DNA of 64,000 bases from contig NZ_SOBH01000004.1 of NCBI RefSeq assembly GCF_004365635.1, forward strand, positions 310,001 through 374,000, written 5' to 3'. Position 1 is the first letter of the stretch; every line of letters begins with the position of its first letter. The position numbers and the translations under genes are program-made. Source of the stretch: Litoreibacter halocynthiae (GTDB taxonomy: Bacteria; Pseudomonadota; Alphaproteobacteria; Rhodobacterales; Rhodobacteraceae). Below, in pieces: positions 8,844 through 63,641 of this stretch. The notes beneath the pieces are model-generated. The model made no database searches. It had not been told where the DNA came from and saw only the letters and a list, made by a program, of their open reading frames with translations.

Positions 8844-8855
8844 GGAACACGCCAC

Positions 8856-9236
8856 ATGAGCAAAGTCATCCTGACCAAAACACGTATTCAAGCCGGAATC
8901 TATGAAGCGGTACTAAGCGCCGAAACCGAGGAAAACTACAATCCCGACTTGGTCGCGGTTCATCTGGAGCGCGAACTGGATGGCTTGTCGGTCACCGAAG
9001 ACGCAAGTCTCGGGAACACATGGCATGTGCGCTTCAATATCCCACGCGAGGTTCTGACGGATGGGGTGCAAACCTTTCTGATCAACGAAAAACCGACAGG
9101 CGATACCTTGGACAGCTTTACGATTGTGACGGGTGAAGTTCTGTCCGACGACATCCGCGCCGAGATGGACTTGCTGCGGTCGGAACTCGACATGCTGAAG
9201 AAAGCGTTTCGCCGGCATTGCGTCGAGACAACTTGA
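8856..9236 (+). CDS. uncharacterised 126-aa protein, partner of the preceding gene
   Basis: This is a small acidic protein whose first 95 residues look beta-rich and whose last 30 form a probable helix (AEMDLLRSELDMLKKAF) with heptad-like leucines, suggesting oligomerisation. It starts 12 nt after the DUF6478-like stop with an AAGGAACAC ribosome-binding region. No motif was recognised. The tight spacing suggests the two encode a functional pair. Confidence 0.7.
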   Translation: MSKVILTKTRIQAGIYEAVLSAETEENYNPDLVAVHLERELDGLSVTEDASLGNTWHVRFNIPREVLTDGVQTFLINEKPTGDTLDSFTIVTGEVLSDDIRAEMDLLRSELDMLKKAFRRHCVETT

Positions 9237-9307
9237 AGACCAGACTTATCCGAGAAGTTGCGCGCATGACGCCGCGTTTTGCGTGACGTGCGCGTAAGCC
9301 TGAGTAA

Positions 9308-12222
<2,915 letters not shown>

Positions 12223-26184: not shown

Positions 26185-26579
26185 AAACCGTATTGGTTTC
26201 TGCCGTTGCGCTCATTGACGCGGATGGCAGAGTGTTGCTCGCCCAGCGCCCCGAAGGAAAATCCATGGCAGGTCTGTGGGAATTCCCCGGTGGTAAGGTC
26301 GAGCCCGGTGAAACACCGGAACACGCGCTAATCCGCGAGCTGCAAGAGGAGTTGGGCATCAACACGTGGCAAAGTTGTCTCGCCCCACTCACTTTCGCCA
26401 GCCATAGCTATGACGATTTTCATTTGCTCATGCCGTTGTTTGCCTGCAGGAAATGGGAAGGCATCCCGACGCCCCAAGAAGGCCAAATCCTGGAGTGGGC
26501 GCGCCCCAACGCGCTGAAAAACTACCCTATGCCACCGGCAGATATCCCATTGTTACCCATTTTGCGTGACTGGCTATAG
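26181..26579 (+). CDS. mutT: 8-oxo-dGTP diphosphatase, MutT/Nudix
   Basis: MutT sanitises oxidised 8-oxo-dGTP to prevent A:T to C:G mutations. The complete Nudix box is visible with G38, E44, R52-E53, E56-E57 and G59. At 132 aa it is the standard MutT length. It is translated from a GTG start overlapping the argJ stop, so expression depends on argJ. Some short Nudix proteins have other substrates, so the function is family-based. Confidence 0.93.
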   Translation: MKTVLVSAVALIDADGRVLLAQRPEGKSMAGLWEFPGGKVEPGETPEHALIRELQEELGINTWQSCLAPLTFASHSYDDFHLLMPLFACRKWEGIPTPQEGQILEWARPNALKNYPMPPADIPLLPILRDWL

Positions 26580-26672
26580 ACTTAACACCTGCGTCAAATT
26601 GTAAAAAATATTTGGTGGCATAAACGAAAAAGCTGGCTAAACTCTGCCTGAATAACTTTGGGGGAAGTTAAA

Positions 26673-26810
26673 ATGCTACGTACAGTGACAATTGGCAGCT
26701 GCGTTTCAATTCAGGGTATTTTCGTCAAGGCGCTTGAGAACGGGCTTATCCGCATCAAGGTCGACGAAAATATTTTTGAAGGCCGCCCTGTAACCCCCAG
26801 AATGAGCTAG
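26673..26810 (+). CDS. 45-aa small protein, unknown function
   Basis: An ATG at 26673 with a strong GGGGGAAG ribosome-binding site 5-8 nt upstream opens a 45-codon frame ending in TAG at 26808. The product, starting MLRTVTIGSCVSIQG and ending EGRPVTPRMS, is beta-like with one cysteine and reads as a real protein rather than random sequence. I recall comparable ~43-45-aa conserved ORFs in this family but cannot name it. Its stop codon lies in the CTAG that is also the stop of hemH on the other strand. Confidence 0.6.
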   Translation: MLRTVTIGSCVSIQGIFVKALENGLIRIKVDENIFEGRPVTPRMS

Positions 26811-30591: not shown

Positions 30592-30594
30592 CTT

Positions 30595-31035
30595 ATGGCA
30601 GAGACCCAAGATCCAATCGCAGTATCGCTTTTTAGCGAGCTGTTTATGGCCGACCAACTTGCCCGCAGCAAGTTGAGCAAAGCGCTGCCCAAGGGGATGG
30701 AACTGTCCCACTTCACAATGCTGAACCACCTTTATCAACTGACCGAGCCTAGAACCCCCGCTCAATTGGCCAAAAGCTTTGCGCTCACCCGTGGGGCGTT
30801 GACCAACACACTCGCAAAGCTGGAATGGGCCGGCCATATCCACGTTTCACCAGACTGGGACGACGCACGGCGCAAGCAGGTGGTGATCAGCCCGGCAGGA
30901 CGCCGCGCGCGCGATACCGCATTGGAGTCTATTGCCCCGATCATCTCAAAGATCATCGAACGTGTGGGTGCTGACAGGGTTCGGGACGCCGTTCCGGTTT
31001 TGCGCGACTTGCGCCGCAGCCTCGCCGATGACTAA
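30595..31035 (+). CDS. MarR family transcriptional regulator
   Basis: The 146-aa winged-helix protein has the MarR layout, with the recognition helix in [28 protein letters not shown] and a wing [13 protein letters not shown]. It starts 3 nt after the nitrilase stop, so it belongs to the comF/grxC/nitrilase run. The target is unknown. Its stop overlaps the convergent ubiG stop in CTAA. Confidence 0.92.
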
Positions 31036-56154: not shown

Positions 56155-56984
56155 CCCAAAACAGCGCGACGCAGGTCTTCATCCACTTCAGGCGCCCGGC
56201 CAAACCATCTCTCGAACCCAGGTACGGCTTGGTGAAGCAGCATTCCAAGTCCGTCCACAGTGAAGCATCCACGTTCTTGGGCGCGTGCTAGGAATGGGGT
56301 GATCAGCGGGTTGTACACGATGTCGGTCACCAGCGTTTTTGGCGTTAGCGCATCCAAATTGAATTTCAACTCCTCTTTACCAACCATACCCAAAGCGGTC
56401 GTGTTGATAAGAGTGGTCGCGTCTTCAAGGTGGCTTGCGGCTTGTGTCCAATCCACGACTTTGATTTTTCCGCCAAAATGCGCCTTCAACGCGTCTGCCC
56501 TGGCTCGGGTACGGTTGGTCAGGATAATTTCCGGTACTTTTTCATGCAAAAGCGCGGCAACGATGGCCCGCGAAGCGCCACCCGCGCCAAGAACCAAGGC
56601 AGGACCCGCTTTGGGATCCCATCCCGGTGCTTCCTGTTTCAAATTCGAGATGAACCCGATGCCGTCGGTATTGTCCGCATGAAGCTTTCCATCGCTTTGG
56701 AATGTAAGCGTATTCGCCGCACCAATCAGCGCGGCTCTGTCAGAGATGACATCCGCAATATCCAGAACGCTTTCCTTGTGAGGCAGCGTGATATTCACGC
56801 CACGGAACCCCATTTTCGGCAGGTTGTTCAATACATGGGACAAATTCACGCTGGAAACATCCATCGGAATGTAGTGACCGTTGATACCATATCGTTTCAG
56901 CCAGTGCCCGTGCAGCGCCGGTGACTTGCTTTGCGTTATCGGTTGGCCAATTACTCCCGCGAGGAGGATTGTCTCTTTGGTCAT
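56151..56984 (-). CDS. aroE: shikimate dehydrogenase
   Basis: AroE reduces 3-dehydroshikimate with NADPH in aromatic amino acid synthesis. The 277-aa protein has K70 in NITLPHK, the substrate DNTDGIG segment and NADPH loop [10 protein letters not shown]. The ATG overlaps the maf stop by four bases. Confidence 0.95.
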
Positions 56985-57580
56985 CCGTCAATTGCTCCCG
57001 ACATGGTAAGATAGCCTAGTACTTCTAATAGCGGCAGACCGAGCACTGTGAAATAGTCGCCATCCACACGGGCGAAAAGCCGCGCGCCCTCGGCTTCCAG
57101 TTGATACCCGCCAACGCAGTGGCGGATTTCCTCCCAATTTCGTTCAACGTAGCCCTCGATATAGGCGGGGTTGAGCGTGCGCATGGTTAAACGGACCTGA
57201 CCCACAGTTCGCCAGACAGGCTTGGCATCTTGATAGATGACGGCTGCTGATAGCAACTTGTGTTGTTTGCCCGACATTTGCTTGAGTTGAGCGATTGCGT
57301 CGTCCGGAGACTTTGGCTTCGAAAAGACTTTGCGTTCAAACTCGAGAACCTGATCGCTGCCAATGACGATTGCTTCCGGGTGCTGATCGGCAACGCGGCG
57401 CGCCTTGAACTCGGCCAAAGTATCAGCGACATCGCGGGCCGTTGCGTCCTCGGCAAGAAGCGAGACTTTAATACTATCTTCATCAATCCGCGCAACTTTG
57501 GATGTGAAAGACAGCCCTGCCTGACGCAGCATTGTCTGTCGCGTTTCGGAGCCGGATGCGAGGATAATTAGTCGGTTCAT
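56981..57580 (-). CDS. maf: Maf family nucleotide pyrophosphatase
   Basis: Maf proteins hydrolyse noncanonical or pyrimidine nucleoside triphosphates. The 199-aa protein has the [13 protein letters not shown]-terminus, [11 protein letters not shown] and [10 protein letters not shown]. It is the first gene of the minus operon. Its start codon is touched by the first DnaA-box-like 9-mer, so its promoter lies within the putative origin. Confidence 0.93.
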
Positions 57581-57974
57581 GTGGATAACTCTGAGGGAAA
57601 CCTCAGGGATACTTATTGCGTTAAGGAGGTCTTATCCACCGCGTTTGCGCAGATCGGTCATTCCACCCACACAGTTCGTTTTTTGGACCTACTCTTATCC
57701 TTTGTGGAGTATGCTATACACGGGTGTGTGCAAGGGACCTCAATGCAATTCCATTCACTATTTACCCACAGATTCTCCACCAGATAGAATTATCCTAACT
57801 TATTGTGATTTATAAGTTTTTATTGGTTCAGAGTTTTCTGTTAAGAACTCTTCTCTGTCAATCGACAATCCGTGGACAAGTATTTGATCCACACTATCCA
57901 CTGTACCTACTAACAACATCATCTTTTCTTTCTTTTTTATTTATTTAAGAAGGAAAGCCGAGAGCGAGGCGCAC
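57581..57974. other. candidate chromosomal replication origin (oriC)
   Basis: This is the only gap longer than 300 bases. It carries DnaA-box-like 9-mers (consensus TTATCCACA): an exact one on the minus strand at 57580-57588, 8/9 matches at 57632-57640, 57762-57770 and 57885-57893, and weaker 7/9 matches at 57703-57711, 57871-57879 and 57894-57902. From about 57771 to 57957 it becomes very AT-rich. Flanking operons diverge from it. A hairpin at 57591-57606 (CTGAGG-GAAA-CCTCAG) and a TTAA-N7-TTAT CtrA-like site at 57621-57635, overlapping a DnaA box, are also visible. A 12/13 match to an IHF site (57877-57889) is present. Confidence 0.72.
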
Positions 57975-58427
57975 ATGACAGATTTTCTGGCAGAGATTTA
58001 CCCATGGACCAAAAGTCTGCACGTGATGTCTGTGATCGCCTGGATGGCAGGGCTGTTCTATCTGCCACGATTGTTCGTTCATCACACAGAGAAAGTTGAA
58101 GTTGGATCCGAGACTGACAAGTTGTTTCAAATGATGGAGCGGAAGCTGCTCAAGCTTATCATGAATCCAGCGATGACCAGCACTTGGATTTTCGGGCTGG
58201 CCTTGGTTTTCACACCGGGCATCGTGGATTGGTCTGAGGGTTGGCCTTGGATCAAAGCTGGTGGCGTGCTGGGAATGACTTGGTTTCACGGCTGGTTGGA
58301 TCAACGTCACAAAGAATTCAGGGATGGCCAGAATACGCGATCAGGCCGGACCTACCGGATGATGAACGAGCTGCCGACTGTTTTTATGATCATTATTGTT
58401 ATCATGGTGATCGCACGTCCGGTTTGA
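57975..58427 (+). CDS. hemJ: protoporphyrinogen oxidase HemJ
   Basis: HemJ oxidises protoporphyrinogen IX to protoporphyrin IX, the step before ferrochelatase (hemH at 26.8 kb). The 150-aa protein has four or five membrane segments and the SLHVMSVIAWMAGLFYLPRLFVHH start, whose histidines bind heme. GAGGCGCAC precedes the ATG. In many alphaproteobacteria hemE lies beside the origin, but here hemJ does and hemE is not in this window. Confidence 0.92.
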   Translation: MTDFLAEIYPWTKSLHVMSVIAWMAGLFYLPRLFVHHTEKVEVGSETDKLFQMMERKLLKLIMNPAMTSTWIFGLALVFTPGIVDWSEGWPWIKAGGVLGMTWFHGWLDQRHKEFRDGQNTRSGRTYRMMNELPTVFMIIIVIMVIARPV

Positions 58428-61138: not shown

Positions 61139-61154
61139 TGTTTCACGTGAAACA
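61139..61154. other. parS site 1 (ParB-binding palindrome)
   Basis: TGTTTCACGTGAAACA is a perfect 16-bp palindrome and the canonical parS of alphaproteobacterial ParABS systems. It lies right after the mnmE stop, and encodes the start region of mnmG (VFHVKH). parA begins 2.5 kb downstream. Confidence 0.93.
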
Positions 61155-63012: not shown

Positions 63013-63641
63013 TGATGGGTGAACAAGACCAGTTCGCCTCGCAGTACGATGTTTCACGTGAAACAATTGAGCGACTTTGCATTTATGAAGATTTGCTAAA
63101 GAAATGGACAACCAGAATCAATTTGATTGCCAGGTCGACGATATCTCAGATTTGGTCTCGACATTTCGCCGACTCAGCACAGATTTTCAACGAAATACCG
63201 GTTAACTCGGAAAAACTCAGTGACTTTGGCTCTGGTGGTGGCTTTCCCGGTCTCGTGATTGCAGCACTAGGACTGGAGAAAATGCCGGAACTTCACGTGT
63301 CCCTTGTAGAATCAGATGTTCGCAAAGCCTCGTTCCTTGTCACCGCCGCTCGCGAAATGGGGCTAAGAGTTGATGTTCATGCAGATCGCGTAGAGTCGTT
63401 GCAACCACAGGCTGCAGATGTTGTTACGGCCCGCGCATTGGCACCGTTGGGGGACCTGCTTTCTCTTGCCGAGATGCACCTGAAAAACCATGGAACGGCC
63501 ATGTTTTTAAAGGGTGAGCGGCATCAAGAGGAACTGGACATAGCCTCAACGATGTGGGACTTCAAAGTGAACAAACAGAAAAGCACGACCAATGATGCGT
63601 CAGCGCTTTTGATAATAACAAATCTGAGGCGAGCAGCTTAA
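63012..63641 (+). CDS. rsmG: 16S rRNA (guanine-N7) methyltransferase RsmG
   Basis: RsmG methylates G527 of 16S rRNA and its loss gives low-level streptomycin resistance. The protein has SAM loop DFGSGGGFPGLV and VESDVRKASFL, typical of the family. The start is ATG 63012 or 63015 (a TTG at 63009 also opens the frame), overlapping the mnmG stop. The 16-bp parS 2 is in frame near residue 13, encoding VSRET. Confidence 0.94.
   Translation: MMGEQDQFASQYDVSRETIERLCIYEDLLKKWTTRINLIARSTISQIWSRHFADSAQIFNEIPVNSEKLSDFGSGGGFPGLVIAALGLEKMPELHVSLVESDVRKASFLVTAAREMGLRVDVHADRVESLQPQAADVVTARALAPLGDLLSLAEMHLKNHGTAMFLKGERHQEELDIASTMWDFKVNKQKSTTNDASALLIITNLRRAA
63050..63065. other. parS site 2 inside rsmG
   Basis: A second perfect TGTTTCACGTGAAACA lies in the rsmG coding sequence, 1911 bp from the first. 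It encodes VSRET and lies about 0.6 kb before parA. Confidence 0.93.

Follow-up and report, generated by a model that had tools for sequence, protein, structure and literature searches.

Where does chromosome replication start in Litoreibacter halocynthiae, whose genome (3.68 Mb) is available as nine contigs? The window, i.e., the whole stretch of 64,000 nucleotides analysed here, corresponds to C4:310001-374000 on contig C4 (418,995 bases). For this window, the initial annotation had proposed a candidate chromosome origin between maf and hemJ, a proposal that is supported by the box cluster, the AT content, the turn of the corrected skew, the parS sites and the conserved module described below. 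The maf-hemJ intergenic region (57581..57974, no strand; 394 bp) is thus very probably the chromosome oriC, of a known type; this prediction draws on its box cluster, AT content, skew change and 50 further maf-hemJ gaps. The claimed position is exact, with maf (56981..57580, minus strand) starting at 57580 and hemJ, encoding protoporphyrinogen oxidase (57975..58427, plus strand), starting at 57975; both genes score above the cut-offs of their families, namely, Maf (TIGR00172) and HemJ (TIGR00701). The top named HemJ relative belongs to Litoreibacter ascidiaceicola (98% identity), and the next ones are mostly from other Litoreibacter. Around the gap, the order is dnaQ-coaE-aroE-maf / hemJ-rho-trmE-gidA-gidB-parA, and the dnaQ-to-maf (minus) and hemJ-to-parA (plus) operons diverge as had been described. 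Here, trmE and gidA are the genes that we take, by eye from their sequences, to be such, and parA is truncated in the window, its matches to ParA-type families scoring below their cut-offs. The gap had also been called the only gene-free one above 300 bp; this holds when ORFs of at least 100 aa are counted as genes, but two or four other gaps appear at cut-offs of 130 or 150 aa, respectively (one of them ending at the window edge), so that the statement hinges on the gene caller. The stretches 8844-9334, 26185-26806 and 30592-31031 of the window are without ORFs of 130-150 aa or more, and one of the window's five most AT-rich 30-mers starts at 26596. Rfam and tRNA scans of the window gave no match.

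DnaA boxes were sought by scoring 9-mers by their mismatches (at most one, or at most two) to the reference TTATCCACA. A perfect box is located at 57580..57588 on the minus strand, where it shares one base with the maf start codon (the first of the box, the last of the codon); this base lies one position outside the interval between the two genes. Three boxes carry one mismatch, namely, TTATCCACC (57632..57640), TTACCCACA (57762..57770) and TGATCCACA (57885..57893), all on the plus strand. Five weak boxes carry two mismatches: TACTCCACA (57703..57711, minus), TTCTCCACC (57773..57781, plus), TTATCCTAA (57790..57798, plus; directly followed by four NTN trinucleotides), TTGTCCACG (57871..57879, minus) and CTATCCACT (57894..57902, plus). 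TGATCCACA and CTATCCACT are the first and second members of a tandem pair within the conserved module. The gap plus the one maf base therefore contains four boxes at up to one mismatch, in agreement with the earlier count of at least four 9-mers matching at 8/9 or better, and nine at up to two; shuffled sequences contained on average 0.15 and 1.63, and the observed numbers were reached in 0 of 2000 shuffles. This is the densest cluster in the scanned part of the own genome (1,230,939 bases, 33% of the total; C4 whole, with samples of C1, C2, C3, C5 and C6), where every other 400-bp stretch contains at most two boxes at up to one mismatch. Exact copies of TTATCCACA occur unclustered at 14 places genome-wide, including the gap's own, versus 9 for the pattern read backwards, so lone exact boxes mean little. 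A search of the own genome for two near exact boxes close together returned no match.

The very AT-rich tract that had been reported next to the boxes was likewise found, as the most AT-rich 30-mer (starting at 57921, 87%), 50-mer (57902, 78%) and 100-mer (57747, 70%) of the window all fall in the gap. Scanning the gap for CtrA yielded a single CtrA-like site (57621..57635, no strand), which is palindromic, has one mismatch to TTAA-N7-TTAA and overlaps the box at 57632; it may be a chance match. Over the 51 gaps (the window's own included), such sites average 1.10 per gap versus 0.74 in shuffles, with 20/51 gaps having any. Neither of two IHF consensus forms has a match in the window; over the 51 gaps they average 0.16 versus 0.03 and 0.29 versus 0.17 in shuffles, while being present in only 8/51 and 15/51. 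GANTC occurs once in the gap and is no commoner than chance over the 51 gaps (1.55 versus 1.77). At the gap edge next to maf, there is a terminator-like hairpin, CTCTGAGGGAAACCTCAGGG (57589-57608); matches of this kind were at chance level in the terminator scan of 57400-58100.

What singles out one part of the gap is its conservation in relatives. A maf-hemJ gap below 700 bp is present in 50 of the 80 HemJ loci taken from other genomes; these gaps are 350-467 bp long and contain 1-7 boxes each at up to one mismatch, and with the window included, the 51 aligned gaps average 2.96 such boxes versus 0.13 in shuffles. Conservation is concentrated in the final ~75 bp ahead of hemJ, the rest being mostly weakly conserved. 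This conserved module consists of the tandem boxes, a CCTAC tract and an AT-rich tract or, part by part, a weak T[G/A]ATCC box, a second box, CCTAC, a broken trinucleotide tract with ATCATC, and a pyrimidine and AT tract. Its first box reads T[G/A]ATCC in 35/51 gaps, followed by the second box, and CCTAC is found in 32/51. In the window, the DnaA-trio-like tract CCTACTAACAACATCATCTTT (57906..57926, plus), as read in the sequence, comprises CTA CTA, a break, and ATC ATC TTT, and it runs into the AT-rich tract (57921..57957, no strand), a putative DNA unwinding element at the first base of which the most AT-rich 30-mer starts. One of the most conserved 9-mers is TATTTAAGA, located at 57942. In Litoreibacter, CCTAC is followed by AACAACATCATC, the pyrimidine tract, TATTTAAG and then a Shine-Dalgarno-like stretch. 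The module also contains TGTACCTACT (57902-57911), of which a second copy (9/10) lies 218 bp to the left at 57684-57693, followed by TTATCC.

A profile (R1) was built from 30 gap-end sequences, the window's among them, and has one match in the own genome, which covers the whole conserved module (57867..57956, plus). Of eight genomes reached through loci, seven match (L055 with four matches at E up to 1), and the genome of L066 gave no match. In a family sample at E 0.01, 157/198 genomes match, 156 of them once and one twice, and 41/198 are without a match; the sample includes genomes that built R1 (at least L010, L012 and L047 among the best loci), which match by construction because they supplied the profile, and the stricter filters applied to more than 40 family genomes may lose further matches. 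In a class sample, 74/190 genomes match (three of which are the own genome or members of its family) and 116/190 do not. Since nine of these 74 have two to four matches, and since hemE, hemJ and rho are all absent beside the match in 4/27 loci from outside the family (L249, L255, L259 and L261), the weak matches include false ones.

For each search, the loci with its 30 best matches were inspected for neighbours of the module. In the family (own genome included), maf lies on one side in 30/30, and the other side is occupied by hemJ in 28/30 and by rho in 2/30, namely, L166 and L174, where rho follows the module directly, without room for hemJ. Among the best class matches, the 27 loci outside the family have hemE next to the module in 19 cases and rho in another 4. 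When the other 30 HemJ loci were searched with a second profile, made from all 51 gap ends, the module was located in 14 (E up to 0.01), of which 12 are at or just upstream of hemE and two just upstream of hemJ; for four of the 12 (L063, L067, L071 and L080), the hemE start could be placed only tentatively, and it overlaps the match. The hemJ pair consists of L025, where the contig starts at this point, and L057, from a Paracoccus MAG in which aroE is upstream and maf was not found. Several of these loci are ordered maf-COG1806-[gap]-hemE-(hemH)-hemJ, often followed by rho. COG1806, hemE and hemH in the fetched relatives are presumed names, given by eye from typical N-terminal stretches, and two of these relatives' genes served as queries in the neighbour search. 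The conservation of the module is independent of hemJ; like the sites, their clustering, the conservation itself and the skew change, this was computed here.

These data bear on one of two alternatives, according to which the gap is only the divergent maf/hemJ promoter region, with DnaA acting as a transcription regulator and the conserved block being the hemJ promoter and leader. Divergent genes do need promoters, the block reaches the Shine-Dalgarno-like stretch ahead of hemJ, and a scan of 57400-58100 found one promoter-like match (57761-57790); yet shuffles gave 1.0 such matches, and the module precedes hemE in other gene orders or rho in L166 and L174, so it is not simply the promoter of hemJ. 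The skew change and the parS sites would also be left unexplained. We regard this alternative as very improbable; a promoter may be present in the gap alongside the origin.

An origin between maf and hemJ had been expected to show as a GC-skew minimum at 57.6-58.0 kb. The raw cumulative GC minimum of C4 lies at contig position 333,003 (window 23003), 34.6 kb left of the gap, and the keto-skew minimum at 356,154, 11.4 kb from it; the former sits on a plateau from ~290 to 368 kb (-7687 at the minimum versus -7623 at 368,000, a difference of 64 units in about 7,700). The raw curve was dropped as a locator and supplemented by the strand-corrected GC3 skew (computed on third codon positions in ORFs of 200 aa or longer), which does change sign at the gap: -0.12, -0.03, -0.08 and -0.04 in the four left segments, and +0.09 to the right. 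As the corrected skew turns there, the raw plateau may reflect gene orientation. In 20-kb samples, C4 is mostly minus left of the site and plus to its right, C1 turns from mostly plus to minus, C2 is close to zero or minus, and C3 is plus except for one sample; these signs are compatible with one origin, on C4, and with a terminus on C1. For three single-contig relatives, each represented by 20 samples and taken as a closed chromosome, the distance between the interpolated skew minimum and the module is 18, 149 and 78 kb, which corresponds to 0.5, 3.6 and 1.9% of the chromosome. Between the two 10-kb segments that flank the module, the skew rises from -0.069 to -0.001 and from -0.001 to +0.063 in two relatives, and in G182 it runs the wrong way (-0.008 to -0.029).

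Searches for hemE and COG1806 relied on PF01208 and PF03618, which we take to be their respective Pfam families. The hemE gene lies at C4:15551-16570, 352 kb from the gap, and no box at up to one mismatch is present in the gene, the 2 kb preceding it or the 1 kb following it; PF03618 had 0 matches in the own genome. The dnaA gene (C3:209261) has two single boxes at up to one mismatch in 20 kb. The proposal that hemJ replaces hemE is thus correct in that hemJ flanks the gap, but a simple swap did not take place, with hemE 352 kb away and COG1806 not found; as a consequence, maf and hemJ, the next genes outward, border the origin. The simplest reading is that the family lost the inner neighbours, an order of events that we infer, so that maf and hemJ now border the origin. 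Two perfect parS palindromes are located 3.4 and 5.3 kb from the gap (61139..61154 and 63050..63065, no strand). Both match the parS consensus, and no other parS with up to two mismatches was found on the rest of C4 or in the further samples of the own genome (811,944 bases).

The remaining alternative, that replication starts at another place (next to dnaA, together with the relocated hemE, around contig position 333-356 kb or in unscanned sequence) and that the gap is a DnaA-titrating or relic cluster, is even less probable, for although the raw GC and keto minima fall at 333,003 and 356,154, hemE, the usual neighbour, is at C4:15551 and the box-cluster scan covered one third of the genome, a stronger cluster was sought and found neither at dnaA nor near hemE nor in the 1.23 Mb scanned with C4 whole, the strand-corrected skew changes sign at the gap, and 3/3 sampled relatives have their interpolated minimum near the module.

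An origin between maf and hemJ can be compared with Cori of Caulobacter crescentus by means of the literature on Cori and of fetched relatives, with which outer gene order and module were compared. The initial annotation had placed the gap in the same neighbourhood as alphaproteobacterial origins, and the outer order, maf-aroE-coaE-dnaQ / hemJ-rho, indeed agrees with that of alphaproteobacteria having a COG1806-hemE gap (e.g., L049-L051, L066, L076 and L077); this agreement is with the fetched relatives rather than with Caulobacter, and the immediate flanks differ, as Cori lies between hemE and COG1806, neither of which flanks the maf-hemJ gap. In other alphaproteobacteria with COG1806-hemE gaps, the module sits upstream of hemE. 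Further likenesses are that the box TGATCCACA has the letters of the Cori G-box (PMC4285127) and that parS, which is within 8 kb of Cori, lies a few kb from the origin in both (PMC4468827). Cori carries five CtrA sites (PMC1914354), whereas the maf-hemJ gap has one imperfect site instead of an array, is without an IHF consensus match and, as a further difference, contains a perfect TTATCCACA box. Judged by sequence, a Caulobacter-like control of the gap by CtrA has little support.

The second comparison concerns the basal unwinding system (BUS) of Bacillus subtilis, which, according to PMC8287927, is made up of tandem DnaA boxes, a spacer, and trinucleotides that have A as the middle base on the bound strand (consensus 3'-GAT-5', read as CTA on the opposite strand); the rule given there asks for at least three trios after a box, with a spacer not exceeding 16 bp. 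The module resembles this in having tandem boxes, a short spacer, trinucleotides and then AT-rich DNA, and its first CTA, 13 bp after the first box, is inside the published 10-13 bp peak (PMC8287927). It differs in that its trio run is broken (CTA CTA, then ACA ACA, then ATC ATC TTT): by eye, the first box has two trios (CTA CTA) at spacing 13 before the run breaks, and three trios are found only from the second, two-mismatch box (spacer 15: ATC ATC TTT). The longest run that a script found in the gap, four trios after the weak box at 57790, is outside the module; thus, it is conservation and not the trio rule alone that singles out the module. Runs of at least three trios occur in 32/51 gap ends versus 4.1 in shuffles, which also destroy boxes and are an unfair control for trios alone. 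The module is described here as BUS-like and may belong to the BUS type. Within the same family, Ori-Finder oriCs of Rhodobacteraceae have been called by DnaA boxes, the GC disparity minimum, a local GC minimum and nearness to parAB, and the available portion of that paper (PMC6699656) names neither flanking genes nor the conserved module. Searches of the open-licence PMC literature brought up neither a Rhodobacteraceae origin located between maf and hemJ nor a description of the module; DoriC may already list the position.

From the B. subtilis and Caulobacter literature, we infer how DnaA binding, strand choice, melting, helicase loading and segregation would proceed at the maf-hemJ origin. 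DnaA would bind the perfect and near-perfect boxes across the gap, and the filling of the weak tandem pair (57885-57902) would set the start point of a DnaA filament. This filament would grow rightwards onto one strand of the CCTAC...ATCATC tract, upon which the adjoining AT-rich tract (57921-57957) would melt and the helicase would be loaded there. The two parS sites 3-5 kb to the right would let ParA/ParB segregate the new copies early.

Draft sequence alone thus places the probable replication origin of this marine Rhodobacteraceae within some 400 bp, and hemE is an unsafe landmark for origins in this family. On a wider scale, the balance tilts slightly towards a single ~75-bp unwinding module being the deeply conserved core of alphaproteobacterial origins, which stayed in place while its downstream neighbour went from hemE to hemJ or rho, with the broken trio run as a class-specific BUS variant. 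If this is true, then, because the module stayed while the neighbour changed, one profile could pinpoint the origins of draft genomes with no need for skew or closed assemblies. Across the family, the conserved module provides a one-profile origin test. None of the species tested in PMC8287927, as far as its accessible part names them, is alphaproteobacterial, and the DnaA-trio model would become testable in alphaproteobacteria by way of the module. It is the module, together with its changing neighbours, that is the part worth following.
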